This document shows positions 37,763 to 53,240 of a DNA stretch of 64,000 bases, piece by piece (positions within the stretch are counted from its first letter, which is position 1; the number at the start of each line of letters is the position of its first letter). The notes under the pieces were generated by a model that was given only the letters and a program-made list of their open reading frames with translations, made no database searches and was not told the origin of the DNA. The stretch is taken from NCBI RefSeq assembly GCF_002214505.1, contig NZ_CP015103.1, positions 248,001-312,000 on the forward strand. Direction: 5' to 3'. A program made the position numbers and the translations under genes. The stretch comes from Thermococcus siculi. Its GTDB lineage: Archaea > Methanobacteriota_B > Thermococci > Thermococcales > Thermococcaceae.

Positions 37763-38224
37763 TCAGTCAACCGCATCTTTAAACGCTATTGCCAAAGCCC
37801 TCACGCAGTTCTTGACCTCCTCGGTCACCCCCTCCTCGCTTCCCGGCTGGGAGCCAAGGAGTTCAAAGCGAGTTGCGGGCAAAAGACCCCTCAGATAGTC
37901 GAGGGTGACCTTCAGCTGAAACCTGAACTCCTCCGGAACATCATCGAGGGCATCCCATGGGTCAGCGACCACCACAGTCCCGGGTCTACCCCCAAAATCC
38001 AGCGAAACGGCAATTATCAGCAGGTCAGGCCTAAAACGAACGATTGCTCCTGCCTGGCTCTCGGGGACGTCATGGCAGTTGAGGGTGAGAAAGCTGGGGT
38101 TCCTCACCGCCTTCAGCAGGGCCTCGGCCAGGTACACACCGAACCCCAGGTCGCCCCTCTCAACGTTCCCAACACCGCACAGGGCTATCCTTCCGGCATC
38201 CCCGATTATCTCATTGACTCTCAC
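37763..38224 (-). CDS. HycI-like hydrogenase maturation protease
   Basis: A 153-residue peptidase M52 family protein: the N-terminal CGVGNVERGDLGFGVYLAEAL contains the conserved Asp of the nickel-sensing motif, and HDVPES matches the second conserved segment. Such proteases trim the C-terminus of NiFe-hydrogenase large subunits. GTG 38224 has GGAGGG 6 bases upstream. It is the last gene of the CO dehydrogenase operon, yet no hydrogenase gene lies in the window, so its client is elsewhere or has been lost. Confidence 0.82.
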   Translation of the reverse strand: MRVNEIIGDAGRIALCGVGNVERGDLGFGVYLAEALLKAVRNPSFLTLNCHDVPESQAGAIVRFRPDLLIIAVSLDFGGRPGTVVVADPWDALDDVPEEFRFQLKVTLDYLRGLLPATRFELLGSQPGSEEGVTEEVKNCVRALAIAFKDAVD

Positions 38225-40294: not shown

Positions 40295-42265
40295 TCAGAT
40301 GCCGAGCTCCTTCCTCTTCTTCATTATGTGGTCGTACATGAGCCTGGCAGCCTTGTACGGGTCCGGCTCGACTATGAAGGCCGCTCCAACGATATCGTAG
40401 AGGTCCTGCGTTAGTATCTTGACCACCTTCGGGCCGCCGAGGACGGGCGGGACTATTCCAAGGTGGGTCGTTATTCCGCTCGCGACGAAGTAGGTTCCAA
40501 TCGAGACGGCCTTCTCCGTCATGGCCTCGGGTGCAGAGCCAACGACCGGGAGGGCCGATATCGGAACGTTGAGGTCCCTCGCTATGAGGTCTGCCAGGAC
40601 CAGCATCCTCGTACAGTCAACGCACGATCCCATGTTGAGCGCCGGTGGGATTCCCCACTCCTTGGCGAACTCCCTCAATCCAGGCCCTACATTGTCTGTA
40701 TCGGCGTACTCCGGCAGGAAGATGCCGTACTTCATAGCAGCAGTCGCCCAGCAGCCGGTTCCGATTAGGAGCACGTCCCTCTTCATGAGTTCGTTGGCTA
40801 TCTTGATGTGGTTGTGATCCTGCTTTATCTTCGGGTTGTTGCAGCCGACGAGACCGGCAACGCCCTTGATCTTGCCCTCAACGATGGCCTCTTCGATGGG
40901 CTTCAGGTTACCACCGAAATGCTTGAGTATCGCCTCGACACTGAAGCCGACGTAGCCGGCCATCTTCTCCTTCGGAATCTCCACCCTCTTTTTGGACCTG
41001 TTCGGGAAGTTCTCCACAGCGGTCCTGACTATCTCCTTTGCTATCTCGTCGGCCCTTCTCTCGTCGAACTTGATGTGTATTGCTCCCGGGAAGGTGGCAA
41101 GCGGGCTGGTGTCGATTATCTTGGTGTGGAAGCACCTTGCAACGTCGACCGTTGCGGGCATTATACACTGCACATCGACCACCATCGCCTCGACGGCACC
41201 GGTAACTATGGCCATCTCCTGCTGGAGGAAGTTGCCCGCTATCGGGATGCCGTGCCTCATGAGGACTTCGAGGCCAGTACAGCACATTCCGACGACGTTT
41301 ATTCCCTTGGCGCCGTACTTCTGGGCAAGCTCTATCAGCTCGGGGTCCTGGGCCGCCTCGACTATCTTCTCCGAGAGTACCGGCTCGTGGCCGTGGACGA
41401 CTATGTTGACGTAGTCCTCCTTGAGGACGCCGAGGTTGGCCTCGGCCTTTATGACCTGAGGAGTTCCGAAGAGTATGTCCTGAAGCTCGGTGGCTATGAG
41501 CGAGCCGCCCCAGGCGTCGCCGAGGGAAGTTTTGAGGCCGTGGAGGAGTATGCTGACCGGGTCGTGGTCGGTTCCTATGTGCGTTCTGTGGAGGCTCTCG
41601 ACTATCTCCCTGTCGATCCCCCTCGGGAGGATTCCGTTCTCGAACCACGGCATACCTGCTTTGGCGGCAGCGGTCTCGAATACCTCATAGGTCTTGGGGT
41701 TGAGGTAGGCTTTCAGGAATCTCAAAGCTTCCTCGTCCTGCTTTCCGAAGTCGTGGAGCGCTACCTCAGCGACCTCCTTGGCGAGTTCTCTAATGGTCTT
41801 GCCCTCTGTTTCAATCCCAAGCCGCTCCGCAACGGCCTTCAGTTTTTCAGCATCCCTCACCTGGTACGGGAGCGTGTTCGAGGCCATGTTGTCAAGCTCA
41901 AGAACCGGTTTGCCCTCCTTCTTGAACTTCTCCGCCATCTCCGCCGCTATGAGAAGGGTCAAAGCCACGTGCCTTCCATGGTCACTGTGGGCTGCCGCTC
42001 CGGCCGCTATCATCCTGAGGAGGTTTCTTGCAACTATGGTGTCGGCGTCGGCACCGCAGACACCCCTGGTTGGCTCGCCGCCGAAGGGGTTTATCCTGCA
42101 CGGACCCATCATACAGTTCCTGCAGCAGACGCCAAGTAGACCGTAGCCGCACTGCGGCTGCTGTTTCTCGAGCCTCTCCCAGACGGTCTCAATGCCCATC
42201 TCCTGAGCGCGCTCATACATCTGCTGGGTGGTACTATCTATGGAAACTTCCTTATACTTCTTCAT
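40295..42265 (-). CDS. cooS: Ni-containing carbon monoxide dehydrogenase catalytic subunit
   Basis: A 656-residue CooS. All known metal ligands can be placed: Cys39 and Cys47 for the D-cluster, Cys48, Cys51, Cys56 and Cys70 for the B-cluster, the same numbers as in Carboxydothermus CODH-II. For the Ni-Fe-S C-cluster: His293 (HGHEPVLSE), Cys329, Cys367 (VQCIMP), Cys475 (GCNNPK), Cys505 (GTGCWA) and Cys548 (MGSCVDC). It oxidises CO to CO2. It overlaps cooF by 4 bases. The complete ligand set argues for an active enzyme. Confidence 0.97.
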   Translation of the reverse strand: MKKYKEVSIDSTTQQMYERAQEMGIETVWERLEKQQPQCGYGLLGVCCRNCMMGPCRINPFGGEPTRGVCGADADTIVARNLLRMIAAGAAAHSDHGRHVALTLLIAAEMAEKFKKEGKPVLELDNMASNTLPYQVRDAEKLKAVAERLGIETEGKTIRELAKEVAEVALHDFGKQDEEALRFLKAYLNPKTYEVFETAAAKAGMPWFENGILPRGIDREIVESLHRTHIGTDHDPVSILLHGLKTSLGDAWGGSLIATELQDILFGTPQVIKAEANLGVLKEDYVNIVVHGHEPVLSEKIVEAAQDPELIELAQKYGAKGINVVGMCCTGLEVLMRHGIPIAGNFLQQEMAIVTGAVEAMVVDVQCIMPATVDVARCFHTKIIDTSPLATFPGAIHIKFDERRADEIAKEIVRTAVENFPNRSKKRVEIPKEKMAGYVGFSVEAILKHFGGNLKPIEEAIVEGKIKGVAGLVGCNNPKIKQDHNHIKIANELMKRDVLLIGTGCWATAAMKYGIFLPEYADTDNVGPGLREFAKEWGIPPALNMGSCVDCTRMLVLADLIARDLNVPISALPVVGSAPEAMTEKAVSIGTYFVASGITTHLGIVPPVLGGPKVVKILTQDLYDIVGAAFIVEPDPYKAARLMYDHIMKKRKELGI

Positions 42266-42867
42266 TTCGACTCCCCCTCATTAACGCGGATTATCTCGGC
42301 GTACATGGATCTGTAAAGATCCCAGCCGTTGTATTCCTCCTCGTATTCACCCTCCTTCAGCTTGATTATCTTCTCCGCCGTTTCCTTCCTGACCCTTCCC
42401 ACTATCTCGTCTATGGTTCCGAACTGAAGCGCCCCCGTCTTGCACGCCTCGACGCAGGCAGGGACCCTTCCCTCGGCCCTCCTGTCCGGACACATGTCAC
42501 ACTTGAACATCACGCCATTGAGGGCTTCGAACTCGGGGATACCGAAGGGGCAGACTATGGCACACATCTTGCAGCCGATGCACTTCTCGGGAGTTATCAT
42601 GACGGCCCCATCCTCGTCGTGGAAGAGAGCCCCCGTGGGACAGACCTCAACGCACGGGGCGCCGTCACAGTGGCGGCAGTTCATTGGAACGTTGTAGGCA
42701 CCCATCGGGAGAATGTGTATCCTGGGCAGGGGCAGGGGGTCCTCAAATATCGCCGAGAAGAGGTCTTTGCTCTGGGAGTGTTCAACGGCACACGCTATCT
42801 CACACTGCCGGCAACCTATGCACTTCGCTGGATCTATGAAGATTGTGGGCGTTGAATCGGTGGGCAT
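42262..42867 (-). CDS. cooF: CooF-like iron-sulfur electron transfer protein
   Basis: A 201-residue protein with four [4Fe-4S] motifs: CIGCRQCEIAC, CRHCDGAPCVEVCP, CIGCKMCAIVCP and CDMCPDRRAEGRVPACVEAC. It is the first gene of the operon and its stop overlaps cooS. CooF takes electrons directly from CO dehydrogenase. ATG 42867 has GGTGATGCC upstream and a TATA box at 42902-42909. A helical C-terminal tail of about 45 residues ends the protein. Confidence 0.92.
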   Translation of the reverse strand: MPTDSTPTIFIDPAKCIGCRQCEIACAVEHSQSKDLFSAIFEDPLPLPRIHILPMGAYNVPMNCRHCDGAPCVEVCPTGALFHDEDGAVMITPEKCIGCKMCAIVCPFGIPEFEALNGVMFKCDMCPDRRAEGRVPACVEACKTGALQFGTIDEIVGRVRKETAEKIIKLKEGEYEEEYNGWDLYRSMYAEIIRVNEGESK

Positions 42868-42901
42868 AAGGCATCACCGTTTCATTTCTTGACAAATTTG
42901 T

Positions 42902-42909
42902 ATAAAGTA
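42902..42909 (-). promoter_or_regulatory. Promoter of the CO dehydrogenase operon
   Basis: The minus strand reads ACTTTATA here, 35-42 bases upstream of cooF, with transcription start expected near 42880. The palindrome ACAAATTTGT at 42892-42901 adjoins it on the downstream side and could be an operator. Confidence 0.6.
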
Positions 42910-43160
42910 GTTTCGGTTGTTGGAAAAAACTGGGGAAAAATTTTTGATAAATCACATAATTTTCACGACATATATCAAAAAGATTGAACCCAGAGATTAC
43001 CCAACGTTGGGTAGTCTGGATTAACCAAAAATGTGTAACCTATGGTTATAATCGAATGAATCCCATTGAGAACGGGGCATTTCTTGTACCCCAGTAACCA
43101 CTTTTGGCATAGCAACTACACATGTATGCCCCATGCATTGGTTCGAAGTTACAACTAAAG

Positions 43161-43170
43161 GCATATATAC
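43161..43170 (+). promoter_or_regulatory. Promoter of cooC
   Basis: GCATATATAC is a strong TATA box 34-43 bases before the cooC ATG; initiation is expected near 43192. Confidence 0.6.
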
Positions 43171-43203
43171 AAAGTTGATTATCAAATTATCTGGTGTCTA
43201 TGT

Positions 43204-44109
43204 ATGTCAAAAAACCTTAGTCCCGAGGTTGAAGAACGAAGAAAAAAGATTTTCCAACTCGCGGATGAACTCAACAGGAAAACCCAGAAGCTGGGGCCGG
43301 AGGAGGGTTTTCGGGTCGTCATAACTGGAAAGGGTGGAGTCGGAAAGACCACCATGACCGCACTTCTGGCCAGACTGCTTGCGAGGGACGGTTACCGGGT
43401 TCTGGCAGTTGACGAAGACCCCCAAATGAACCTGGCCCATGCCCTTGGCGTTCCCAGGGAGGTAAGGGACAGCATAGTCCCCCTCAACAGGAACCTGGAT
43501 TACATTGAGGAGAAAACCGGTGCCCGGCCCGGAACAAACTGGGGCCTCTACTTCTCCCTAACCCCAGACGTGAGGGACGTGGTGGACCGTTTTGGAGTCG
43601 TTGGACCCGATGGTGTCATGCTGCTGGTAATGGGAAGTGTGGTTCAGGCCGCCGCGGGCTGCTTGTGCCCGGAGAACGCACTGCTCGATGCCGTGATCAA
43701 GTACATAAACCTCAGGAAGGGGGAAATAATCCTGATGGACACCCAGGCGGGGCTGGAGCATTTTGGAAGGGCCCTCGCGAGGGGATTCAAACAGGCCATC
43801 ATCCTGACCGAGCCGACCTACAACTCGGTTCAAGTGGCAGTTGACGCTGCCAGACTCGCGGAGGGGCTTGGAATAAAACACATACACCTCGTGATGAACA
43901 AGGTGAAGAAACCCGCCCACGTTGAAAAGGTGGAGAGGGTTCTGAACGAACTCGGATTCAACGATTTCACAACCAAAACCGTGATCCCCTACGATGAACT
44001 GGTGGAGGAGTACGATCCGGAGATAGAGGCCATCCTCTCCAACCCGGAGTCACCGACTTACCAGAAGGCCCTTGAGCTGAAGAATATTCTCCTCGAATAC
44101 GCGGAATGA
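43204..44109 (+). CDS. cooC: CO dehydrogenase nickel-insertion ATPase CooC
   Basis: A 301-residue MinD/SIMIBI-class ATPase. The P-loop is GKGGVGKTT at residues 42-50 and the CxC motif GCLCPEN (Cys153, Cys155) is the nickel or zinc site shared by CooC proteins at the dimer interface. A charged N-terminal extension of about 35 residues precedes the fold. CooC matures the C-cluster of CooS. It diverges from the cooFS operon, so its expression can be set separately. Confidence 0.92.
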   Translation: MSKNLSPEVEERRKKIFQLADELNRKTQKLGPEEGFRVVITGKGGVGKTTMTALLARLLARDGYRVLAVDEDPQMNLAHALGVPREVRDSIVPLNRNLDYIEEKTGARPGTNWGLYFSLTPDVRDVVDRFGVVGPDGVMLLVMGSVVQAAAGCLCPENALLDAVIKYINLRKGEIILMDTQAGLEHFGRALARGFKQAIILTEPTYNSVQVAVDAARLAEGLGIKHIHLVMNKVKKPAHVEKVERVLNELGFNDFTTKTVIPYDELVEEYDPEIEAILSNPESPTYQKALELKNILLEYAE

Positions 44110-44190: not shown

Positions 44191-44883
44191 ATGCTCACGC
44201 TCAACAGGCTCGTTGATGAGGGGGACGCGGAGGGCATCCTCGAGTACGCGAGGGAGTTCCACGGGCACGCCTGTCCCTACCTCGCGCTCGGAATCAGGGC
44301 GTCGCTGGTGGCGATGGAGGAACTCGGCGTCGGCAGGCTCGACTACTCCGGAAGCGTTGACGAATCGATCCTGGCGGTAGTCGAGATAAACAGCTGCTTC
44401 ACCGACGGCGTCCAGGTAACGACCGGATGCACGCTAGGAAACAACTCCCTGATCTACCTCGACCTCGGAAAGACGGCCCTGACCCTCGTGAAGCGCTCCA
44501 CATGGGAGGGTGTGAGGGTTTACGCAGACGCGGAGAGGCTCGCCAAGTACTACCCGCCCGGAGCCAGGGAGCTTTTTGACAAAGTCGTCAGGGAGAGGAA
44601 GGGAACGGATGAGGAGAGGAAAAGGCTGTGGAAGCTCTGGGAGGAGATAGCCCACTCTATGCTCACCCTTCCAAAGGAGGAGTTCAAGGTCGAGCGCGTG
44701 AAAGTGCCGCCGATGGAGCAGGCTCCCATCTTCAGCAGCCTCCGGTGCTCGAAGTGTGGAGAGCTGGTCATGGAAACGAGGGCCGTTCACGTGGACGGGA
44801 AGCCCTATTGTCTCTCGTGCGCCGGGGAGAGGTACCTGGGAGTCCTCGGCCGCGGAATAGTCGAACTCGGAGGGAGGGAATGA
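44191..44883 (+). CDS. FmdE family protein with C-terminal zinc finger
   Basis: A 230-residue protein. The N-terminal FmdE domain has [15 protein letters not shown] (residues 23-37) and [18 protein letters not shown], whose His and Cys residues are likely metal ligands. A C-terminal zinc ribbon has CSKCGE and CLSCAGE. FmdE was named from the formylmethanofuran dehydrogenase operon, but Thermococcales lack that pathway. Here it overlaps a metal-type importer by 4 bases, suggesting a role in sensing or trafficking a metal or metal cofactor. Confidence 0.82.
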
Positions 44884-46004
44884 GGATGAGGAAGCTACTG
44901 GCGCTTTTCCTCGTGTTCCTCGTGGTGGCGGTCAGCGGGTGCATGGGCAGCACTCAAACCGCCGAAGCTGGCAAGGACACCGTAACGGTTACCGACGCCC
45001 TTGGGAGGACGGTTGAGGTGCCTGCGAAGGTAACCAAGGTCGTCGCCGCTGGACCGGGCGCTCTGAGGCTGCTGGTCTACCTCAACGCGAGTGACATGGT
45101 CGTTGGAGTGGAGGACTTTGAGAAGCGCTACTCCTTTGGAAGACCCTACATAATCGCCCACCCAGAGCTGAAGGACCTGCCGAGCATAGGACCCGGGGGC
45201 CCGGGAAAGCTTCCGGACTTCGAGGCGCTCATAAACCTCAAGCCGGACGTGATATTCCTGACCTACGTTGACGAGAAGACGGCTGATGAGATAGAGGAGA
45301 AAACCGGCATCCCCGTCGTCGTCCTCAGCTACGGCCGGCTGGCCACCTTCGAGGACGAGGAACTCTTCAGGTCAATCGAACTGGCCGGGAAGATACTCGG
45401 GAAGGAGAAGCGGGCCGGGGAGGTTGTAGAGTTCATCAAGTCCGTCCAGGCCGACCTCGTGAAGCGCACGGAGGGCGTTGAGCCGAAGAGGGCCTACGTC
45501 GGCGGGATAGGCTACAAGGGCGCCCACGGGATAGAGAGCACAGACGGGAGCTATCCGCCGTTCAGGGTTGTCCACGCCGACAACGTGGCAAAGGAACTCG
45601 GCGACGGCCACCACATGATAGACAAGGAGAAGCTCCTGGAGTGGGAGCCGGACTACATATTCATAGACGAAGGAGGACTGAAGCTCACCCTCGACGATTA
45701 TTCCAAGAACCCGGACTTCTACAACTCCCTCAAAGCCGTGAAGAACGGCAACGTCTATGGAATACTGCCCTTCAACTTCTACACCACCAACATAGGAACC
45801 GCCCTCGCCGATGCCTACTACATCGGCAAAGTCCTTTATCCCGGGCGCTTCGAGGATGTTGACCCGGCAAAGAAGGCCGACGAGATATACGCCTTCCTCG
45901 TTGGGAAGCCCGTCTACGGGGAGATGGCGGCTCAGTTCGGCGGCTTCGGGAAGATAGACCTCGAGAACGGGACTGTTAAATACTCACTGCCAACGTCGCC
46001 GTGA
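44880..46004 (+). CDS. ABC transporter substrate-binding lipoprotein (iron/cobalamin type)
   Basis: A 374-residue lipoprotein starting in the ATGA overlap with the fmdE gene (ATG 44886 is an alternative). The signal peptide ends in VSGC (Cys20). It has the BtuF/FepB-type fold: [21 protein letters not shown] at the start of the mature part, then [13 protein letters not shown] and later [11 protein letters not shown]. It should bind a metal chelate, heme-like or corrinoid ligand, or a metal oxyanion; the ligand is unknown. Confidence 0.87.
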
Positions 46005-47044
46005 TGCCCATGGACTACGAGGGGTACGTCAGGAGGAAGGTCCTCATAGGTTTATTTTTACTCCTCTCAATCCTCCTGGTTAGCCTGTACTCCCTCTCAA
46101 GGGGATCCTACCATCTCTCGCTCCAAGAGGTTCTTGAGGCTCTAATCGGGAACGGCACCGAGGCCGCGGCCCTCGTCGTGTGGAAGGTTCGCCTGCCTCG
46201 CATAGTGGCCGGTCTCCTGGTTGGGGGCGCTCTTGCGGTTGCGGGGGCGGTTATGCAGGGCTTCCTGAGGAACCCGCTGGCGACGCCATTCACGATGGGC
46301 GTTTCTCACGGGGCGATGTTCGGGGCTTCCCTCGCGATAATCCTCGGCGCCGGCTACGCGGAAAGCTCCGGCAGGATATCCCTGAACAACCCCTACGCGG
46401 TGGTGCTGTTCGCTTTCATGGGCGCCATGGCCGCGGTGGGCGTAATTCTTCTCCTCGCGAGGCTCAGGGGGCTTTCTCCAGAGGCCATAATCCTCGCGGG
46501 AGTGGCGATGAGTTCCCTCTTCGTTGCCCTCACCACCCTCGTCCAGTACTTCGCGGACGAGCTTCAGCTCGCCGCCATGGTTTACTGGAGCTTCGGCGAC
46601 CTCGGGAGGGCCACGTGGCGTGAGAACGCCATAATGCTCCTCGTCTTTGTCCCGGTGTTCGTCTACTTCGTCGTGAGGAGGTGGGATTTGAACGCGTCAG
46701 CCGCAGGTGAGGAAGTTGCAAAAAGCGTCGGGGTGGATGTCGAGAGGGTCCGTTTGGTATCCACGTTCCTCGCGGCGCTCATAACCGCCGTGGGCGTCGC
46801 CTTCGTTGGAGTCATAGGCTTCATCGGCCTCATAGCCCCCCACGCGATAAGGCTCGTTGCGGGGGGCGACTACCGCTTCCTGGTGCCCCTCTCAGCACTG
46901 GCCGGAGCGCTCCTCCTGGTCACCGCTGATACAGTAGCGAGACTCGTCCTCGCGCCCATGATACTTCCCGTTGGTATAGTGACGTCCTTCCTGGGCGCCC
47001 CTGCGTTCATATACCTCCTTGTGAGGCTGGAGGGAAGGAGATGA
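46004..47044 (+). CDS. FecCD/BtuC-family ABC transporter permease
   Basis: A 346-residue permease with about nine to ten membrane helices and family motifs LRLPRIVAGLLVGGALAVAG-like (residues 60-80), GFLRNPLATPFTMGVSHGA and GVIGFIGLIAPHAIRLV, the coupling region. ATG 46004 forms a TGATG junction with the binding-protein gene; ATG 46010 is possible. It is the membrane part of a type II importer. Confidence 0.9.
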   Translation: MPMDYEGYVRRKVLIGLFLLLSILLVSLYSLSRGSYHLSLQEVLEALIGNGTEAAALVVWKVRLPRIVAGLLVGGALAVAGAVMQGFLRNPLATPFTMGVSHGAMFGASLAIILGAGYAESSGRISLNNPYAVVLFAFMGAMAAVGVILLLARLRGLSPEAIILAGVAMSSLFVALTTLVQYFADELQLAAMVYWSFGDLGRATWRENAIMLLVFVPVFVYFVVRRWDLNASAAGEEVAKSVGVDVERVRLVSTFLAALITAVGVAFVGVIGFIGLIAPHAIRLVAGGDYRFLVPLSALAGALLLVTADTVARLVLAPMILPVGIVTSFLGAPAFIYLLVRLEGRR

Positions 47045-47787
47045 AGGTCATCAAAGCCAGGAACCTCAGATTCTCCTACAACGGCGCCGACGTCCTTAGA
47101 GGGGTGAACCTTGAGGTGGAGGAGGGCGAGTTCGTAGCGATCCTAGGCCCGAACGGTGCCGGTAAGAGCACGCTCCTGAAGTGCATCTCAGGGGTTCTGA
47201 AGTGCGAGGGCGTTGAGATCTTCAACAGACCGATCGGAGAGTACTCCCGGAACGAGCTGGCGAGGCTCATAGCCTACGTCCCCCAGAGGGTAGAGCCGGG
47301 CTTCATGACGGTCTTTGACACAGTCCTGCTCGGAAGGAGGCCATACATGGGACTGAGGCCTTCAGTCAGGGACGTTGAGGCCGTCAGGGTGGCACTCAGA
47401 AGGCTCGGAATAGAGGACCTCGCCCTCAAGGTCACCAACAGGGTGAGCGGCGGCGAGCTGCAGAAGGTGAACATAGCCCGGGCCTTAGCGCAGGAACCGA
47501 AAATCCTCATGATGGACGAGCCGACCAACAACCTCGATATAAAGAGCCAGCTCGAGGTGATGAGGATAGCCAGGAAGTTCTCGGCAGACGGCGGCACGGT
47601 CGTCATGGTGATGCACGACATTAACCTGGCCATCCGCTTCGCCAAGAGGTTCATCTTCCTCAAGGAGGGGAAAATAGTGGCCAGCGGCGGCCTGGAAGTC
47701 CTAACCCCCGGGATATTCAGGGAAATCTACGGGGTTGACGTCAAAATAGAGGATGTTAAGGGAGTCCCCGTGGTAATACCGTTCTGA
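47041..47787 (+). CDS. FecE/BtuD-family ABC transporter ATP-binding protein
   Basis: A 248-residue ATPase with Walker A GPNGAGKST (residues 37-45), signature VSGGELQK and Walker B KILMMDEPTNNLD. It overlaps the permease gene by 4 bases and completes the importer whose operon starts with fmdE. Confidence 0.92.
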   Translation: MKVIKARNLRFSYNGADVLRGVNLEVEEGEFVAILGPNGAGKSTLLKCISGVLKCEGVEIFNRPIGEYSRNELARLIAYVPQRVEPGFMTVFDTVLLGRRPYMGLRPSVRDVEAVRVALRRLGIEDLALKVTNRVSGGELQKVNIARALAQEPKILMMDEPTNNLDIKSQLEVMRIARKFSADGGTVVMVMHDINLAIRFAKRFIFLKEGKIVASGGLEVLTPGIFREIYGVDVKIEDVKGVPVVIPF

Positions 47788-47870
47788 CTACCCACATATG
47801 AGTAACACTGTCGAATTTTGGGACAAAGCTTTTAAGTGCTTTAGGGCAACCTAAGCCGGAGGTGTTAGAC

Positions 47871-53202: not shown

Positions 53203-53240
53203 TCCATTTCTACTCAGTTATGGGTAAGAGGTGAACAAAA

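Follow-up and report, generated by a model that had tools for sequence, protein, structure and literature searches.

Because the known CO regulator is missing from the genome of Thermococcus siculi, how solitary Thermococcus CO dehydrogenases are controlled is still a question. The coo locus of this species lies in the 64,000-nucleotide stretch analysed here (the window; G000:C1:248001-312000 of the 2.03-Mb chromosome, a Thermococcus-type genome), and its gene cluster is of the solitary, TcCODH-I-like type of Thermococcus, a type assigned by gene order. Two divergent operons are arranged around one intergenic region:

40295–42265, minus strand: cooS, the catalytic subunit of an anaerobic CO dehydrogenase (TIGR01702, above cut-off)
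42262–42867, minus strand: cooF, a ferredoxin-like electron-transfer protein, heading the cooF-cooS operon
42868–43203: cooF/cooC divergent intergenic control region, 336 bp, length-locked (333–339 bp across 18 species)
42901–42906, minus strand: cooF TATA element (TTTATA on the cooF strand), kept in 18 of 18 species
43162–43170, plus strand: cooC TATA element, from the aligned coo regions
43204–44109, plus strand: cooC, a P-loop ATPase of the Ni-insertion type (MinD/ParA-like P-loop; name from context)

As one part of the explanation developed below, which we hold at about even chances, the stretch from 42868 to 43203 would control the cooF-cooS and cooC operons jointly. The conserved coo cassette includes a HycI-like hydrogenase-maturation protease gene (window 37763-38224) and is without a hydrogenase gene. 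Between cooC and mrp (window 44191-47787) lie genes for an FmdE-type protein that carries a DksA/TraR-like zinc finger and for an iron/metal ABC transporter; transporter genes are also found 3' of cooC in L081, L085, L088, L090 and L091, and mrp directly follows cooC in L077-L079, L084 and L087.

The initial annotation had drawn attention to the palindromes of this region, and they are present where it had placed them: a 16-base core TACCCAACGTTGGGTA (42998-43013) sits inside the 24-base AGATTACCCAACGTTGGGTAGTCT (42994-43017) with one mismatched pair, TAACC-TAT-GGTTA occupies 43036-43048, the inverted repeat TTTTTGATA (42941-42949) and TATCAAAAA (42973-42981) encloses 23 bases, and ACAAATTTGT (42892-42901) abuts or overlaps the cooF TATA element, in keeping with the promoter position ascribed to it. 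The distances given for the main palindrome were also correct, as it ends ∼92 bases from the cooF TATA element and ∼149 from that of cooC. It is rare, since only two gap-free 24-base palindromes with at most one mismatched pair occur in 364 kb of this genome (at coo and at genome position 437822); once spacers of 0–6 are permitted, its palindrome score is equalled in 8 of 300 dinucleotide-shuffled versions of the region, so that, taken alone, the palindrome is notable and not overwhelming. The other palindrome of this quality, AACTTTCGGAAATTTCCGAAAGTT, is located at G000:C1:437822-437845 (L103).

A CooF search of 94 Thermococcaceae genomes returned the window and 17 further loci with the same divergent arrangement (18 species), whose coo regions are 42–53% identical to that of the window. 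The 16-base core, the presumed centre of the region, is absent at all 17 orthologous loci: conservation around the main palindrome is poor, and none of the relatives has its letters at coo. Searching the genome and its relatives for the core, as the initial annotation had proposed, gave several 20-mer look-alikes elsewhere that are coding (e.g. a GTPase P-loop). The inverted repeat is not kept at orthologous loci either, its stretch being poorly conserved, and the element at the cooF TATA box was found again in four relatives (L013, L016, L017, L019); TAACC-TAT-GGTTA is conserved, as part of a larger box. The features first noted are real, and the one placed at their centre is the least conserved. 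Five blocks of the region are conserved, namely the ribosome-binding side of cooF, the cooF TATA element with TTTCnGTT, a short AAC, a central box (43020-43050) and the cooC promoter, and outside them the sequence is near saturation. The sites in and around the central box are as follows:

42998–43013, no strand assigned: exact TACCCA-N4-TGGGTA dyad, proposed second operator, present at coo in the window species only
43020–43050, plus strand: conserved central coo box ATTAACCAAAAATGTGTAACCTATGGTTATA, from the alignment of coo regions
43022–43037, plus strand: box left half, a two-mismatch TACCCA-N4-TGGGTA dyad (matrix match), proposed ancestral operator
43036–43048, no strand assigned: box right half, TAACC-TAT-GGTTA, conserved
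43117–43132, plus strand: TACACATGTATGCCCC, weak counterpart (poor score here) of a site that several relatives have ∼94 bp downstream of the box operator

The conserved box is a firm feature of the locus. Its consensus TWMCCAAAAGTGTGAAACCNAWGGTTA (≤3 mismatches) is matched once per genome in 12 genomes, every time at coo, and the reversed pattern has no match in the same search; at six further coo loci the box is more diverged. In G054, where it is the most degraded, cooS (L092:418-2389) is split across two reading frames, by a frameshift or an assembly error, and in G043 the gap of a CODH variant (CooS identity 70%) is short and the box is missing from it. The left half reads TACCCA-AAAG-TGTGAA and lies 24 bp from the exact palindrome; the latter copy is not conserved at orthologous loci, whereas the box copy is conserved in most relatives. 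Eleven relatives carry an unlike dyad, TGACY-N4-RGTCA, centred 32–34 bp upstream of the box AACC, which is the place of the window palindrome (centre 31 bp upstream) in unrelated letters; in L020 and L017, for example, this dyad precedes the centre of the box dyad by ∼38 bp.

Each promoter has, in addition, a dyad of its own:

42911–42930, minus strand: cooF-proximal dyad region (cooF strand: GTT ... AACCG), laid out as at cooC
43140–43156, plus strand: cooC-proximal dyad GGTT-N9-AACt, against the BRE

The two coo promoters firmly share this layout, in which GGTT (or GTT) is followed after 9–10 bases by AAC against the BRE. When the cooC composite GGTT-N9-AACCTAAARGCATTTATA was searched with up to three mismatches in the 94 genomes, it was found at the cooC promoter of 17 relatives, on the other strand at the cooF promoter in two (G013, G036), and in two other places; the cooC promoter of the window is more than three mismatches away from the composite, yet retains GGTT and AAC. 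A DtxR-type or NikR-type site was considered for the AACC/GGTT and GTGT/ACAC pairs and dropped, as the spacing does not suit. The mrp/NBP35 promoter also has a second dyad, TGTC-N9-GACA, between its TACCCA site and the BRE (L006, L007, L249-L268; window 47805-47830), with a geometry equal to that of GGTT-N9-AACC at cooC.

The outer 12 bases of the 16-base core, TACCCA-N4-TGGGTA, extend the analysis beyond coo. This dyad occurs exactly at 33 sites in the 94 genomes, compared with 5 for the reversed control, and the genes downstream include, most often, mrp/NBP35, an Fe-S carrier gene (ten sites), besides sufC (at least four), deoC (three, this genome included) and, with single sites, an fprA-like gene, wtpA and a PALP-family gene. 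In the 2 Mb of this genome the exact form is found twice, one copy being that at coo, 24 bp from the weaker box copy. If one mismatch is tolerated, the genome holds seven sites, every one of them intergenic; they lie at coo, deoC, mrp, a thioredoxin-reductase-like gene and the gene of an XRE-CBS regulator, close to a histone gene, and at window 53211. Sites with two mismatches, such as the box copy in the window, are at background genome-wide (47 versus 41 for the control). Away from coo, the window holds two one-mismatch dyads:

47789–47804, plus strand: TACCCACATATGAGTA, in the mrp/NBP35 promoter (mrp start 47862 or 47871)
53211–53226: TACTCAGTTATGGGTA, between a PfkB-family kinase gene and a divergent unnamed 196-aa gene (start 53241)

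The initial annotation had missed that TACCCA-N4-TGGGTA is, to judge from these occurrences, a general promoter motif of Thermococcaceae; its family-wide recurrence is firm, and a literature search for its letters yielded nothing relevant. The mrp promoters of coo-bearing relatives often read TACCCA-N4-TGTGTAA, which closely resembles the box left half at coo. As the target genes are mixed (deoC, wtpA), an 'Fe-S regulon' is a tendency only. At deoC, the fprA-like gene and the trxB-like gene, and in two genomes also at sufC, the dyad stands directly upstream of BRE/TATA, where archaeal activators are usually located (PMC7408454). A repressor position, downstream of TATA, is seen at sufC of G038 and G066 and at window 53211, where the dyad falls between the TATA element and the start of the 196-aa gene. 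With most of the other motif sites just upstream of BRE/TATA, activation would be more likely than repression. Elsewhere the dyad is within ∼40 bp of TATA and the coo sites are 90–160 bp away, hence not next to BRE/TATA. A one-mismatch dyad is seen just upstream of the TATA element of the XRE-CBS regulator gene (L308, genome 1373260-1373275), whose product would be a candidate binding protein if it is self-regulating.

We then scored the coo regions with a matrix built only from non-coo promoters. Its sites were gathered by likeness to the window palindrome, so the high score of the palindrome itself is not independent evidence, whereas the fit to the boxes of the relatives is independent. For 10 of the 18 coo regions, the best match fell exactly on the box left half. 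Averaged over relatives, the peak at the box was reached by only 2 of 300 symmetric permutations. Weaker peaks appeared 25 and 94 bp downstream of the box left half, and the box scored poorly in L011, L013, L016, L018 and L022.

We favour an explanation in which a putative dimeric regulator recognises TACCCA-N4-TGGGTA-type dyads both at coo and at mrp/NBP35, sufC and other genes, and we consider it, as a whole, about as apt to prove right as wrong. This regulator would occupy the central box (43022-43037) and, in the window species, also the consensus copy at 42998-43013, and the same protein would serve the promoters of mrp/NBP35, sufC and the other genes; each coo promoter additionally has its own GGTT-N9/10-AAC dyad against the BRE. 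Because the palindrome is 24 bp from a weaker copy in the conserved box, we take it to be most plausibly an additional operator of consensus grade, next to the ancestral one. Binding, and by one and the same regulator, is what we infer from the shared motif, and a regulator common to coo, mrp/NBP35 and sufC would tie CO dehydrogenase expression to Fe-S-cluster supply or redox state. Alternatively, the central box might serve a regulator that acts at coo alone; its similarity to the mrp/sufC dyad would then be coincidental, and the exact palindrome in the window species would have arisen by chance or be transient. That the whole box occurs once per genome, that the palindrome is not conserved at coo and that eleven relatives have an unrelated dyad in its place all speak for such a protein; however, the exact 12-base dyad is present only twice in 2 Mb with one copy so close to the box, and a matrix from other genes selects the box in more than half of the species. 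On balance we regard a dedicated regulator as unlikely, if still deserving of serious attention.

A second property of the locus is its geometry. In all 18 species the coo intergenic length is 333–339 bp (sd 1.5), with 124–126 bp from the box to the cooC TATA element, 133–140 bp from the cooF TATA element to the box and 259–265 bp from TATA to TATA. Two control divergent gaps from the same species (n=2, thus few) varied more: the histone-rbcL gap measured 297–392 bp (sd 27) and that between an HTH gene and an acyl-CoA synthetase gene 130–222 bp (sd 21), and for pairs below 60% identity the mean length difference was 1.8–1.9 bp at coo versus 37–43 bp at the controls. The histone-rbcL gap is near-constant inside a group at 60–70% identity, so some length conservation exists outside coo; among the three gaps only coo is constant at the lowest identities, and its length lock is firm. 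The histone-rbcL gap (L142-L157; G000 218225-218615) is 391–392 bp in seven species and 350–352 bp in five, and is possibly another length-constrained region.

The fixed length might come from an unrecognised transcript, or from chromatin packing by histones, between the two promoters, without any loop. The near-constancy of the histone-rbcL gap within species groups lends this some weight. Against it, no Rfam family matches the coo region near threshold, the sequence between the blocks is close to saturation, and, of the gaps compared, only coo keeps its length below 60% identity; a hidden coding sequence was rejected, as lengths of 334, 337 and 338 bp break the frame across species. We consider a transcript or packing quite unlikely as the cause. 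In the favoured explanation of a shared dimeric regulator, the central array would be joined to both promoters by a wrapped or looped, phase-dependent complex, which the fixed spacing would reflect, as a centrally bound protein would have to face both promoters on a given helix side. The idea of an activator or a looped complex had come with the initial annotation, which had attached it to the strongest palindrome. The shared divergent region and the unusual, strictly held distance of the main sites to both promoters stand, and strict spacing would fit a wrapped, looped or phase-dependent complex; the part assigned to the palindrome as conserved centre does not. The 24–25 bp between neighbouring sites, which is no whole number of helical turns, counts against our explanation, as do the greater distance of the coo sites from TATA, the background frequency of two-mismatch dyads, the poor box scores in five relatives and the restriction of the exact palindrome at coo to the window species. 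In its most specific form, which we put forward only tentatively and think doubtful as it stands, an undescribed Thermococcaceae regulator of Fe-S-cluster supply and redox genes, with the operator TACCCA-N4-TGGGTA, would act at coo from a central array at fixed helical phase, 90–160 bp from two divergent promoters, making this a length-locked, enhancer-like region in an archaeon.

Could a described regulator act here instead? Sites for EnfR, SurR and TGM in the coo regions were absent or not above chance; the SurR operator GTT-N3-AAC is absent from the window region, and among the 18 coo regions one pair was found in L013 and L016 only. The T. onnurineus codh cluster is repressed by EnfR (Tfx family), which binds a 36-bp pseudo-palindrome at the codh promoter there (PMC10570040), and an EnfR-type (TFX_C) protein is encoded in this genome (G000:348390-348632) and in 86 of the 94 genomes. 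Nevertheless, the 18 conserved letters of its site match none of the 18 coo regions better than shuffles, and the palindrome and box are unlike AATCTTTTTGTTTACATT, which makes a role for EnfR at this locus highly improbable. CorQR, the CO-responsive activator pair of T. onnurineus and, as cited in PMC4791640 and PMC13077300, the only CO-responsive regulator described for the genus, can practically be dismissed, as V4R (CorQ) and LysR-type HTH (CorR) proteins are absent from this genome (assembly 99.94% complete) and from most box-bearing relatives and, where present, the pair adjoins the other, hydrogenase-linked cluster type (e.g. in G032, with both CODH kinds).

No regulator gene travels with the coo cassette among the compared loci: cooC, cooF, cooS, a ferredoxin, a GltA-like oxidoreductase, a second ferredoxin and the HycI-like protease keep together where the contig allows, and the flanking genes differ. 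The analysis names concrete candidate sites and suggests that CO oxidation may be tied to Fe-S-cluster supply. The dyad sequence provides a bait for the putative regulator, which our literature search did not turn up, and the coo region offers a natural case for archaeal control at a distance.

In bacterial regulation of the IscR/SufR type, a dyad operator is common to Fe-S assembly genes and Fe-S enzymes. The logic of the shared operator proposed here is alike, although the motif is unrelated as far as known and the targets here include deoC and wtpA. In T. onnurineus NA1, where CorQR and EnfR regulate the CODH cluster (PMC4791640, PMC10570040), CooF, CooS and CooC genes are likewise under transcriptional control, and the EnfR operator is a pseudo-palindrome, akin to the palindromic site described here. 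In that type (L094, L096), however, cooF, cooS and cooC run in one direction with corQR upstream, whereas at our locus cooC is divergent, corQR is absent and an EnfR site was not found. Similar in gene order is the TcCODH-I operon of Thermococcus sp. AM4. According to PMC13056359 (citing Benvenuti 2020), it encodes a solitary CODH of the clade-E type whose cooC gene lies apart from the operon and on the other strand, an arrangement also seen in the window; our literature search found no regulatory analysis of the AM4 intergenic region. CooC and CooS of T. gammatolerans were detected even in rich medium with sulfur (PMC2718504), and if its locus is of this coo type, such detection would fit control beyond CO alone. 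Ss-LrpB of Sulfolobus (PMC7408454), which has another motif and belongs to another lineage, is a known archaeal regulator that acts at several operators, and for it wrapping or a repression loop has been proposed; the coo arrangement would be a variant of this kind of control, with two divergent promoters on either side of a central array in a region of fixed length.
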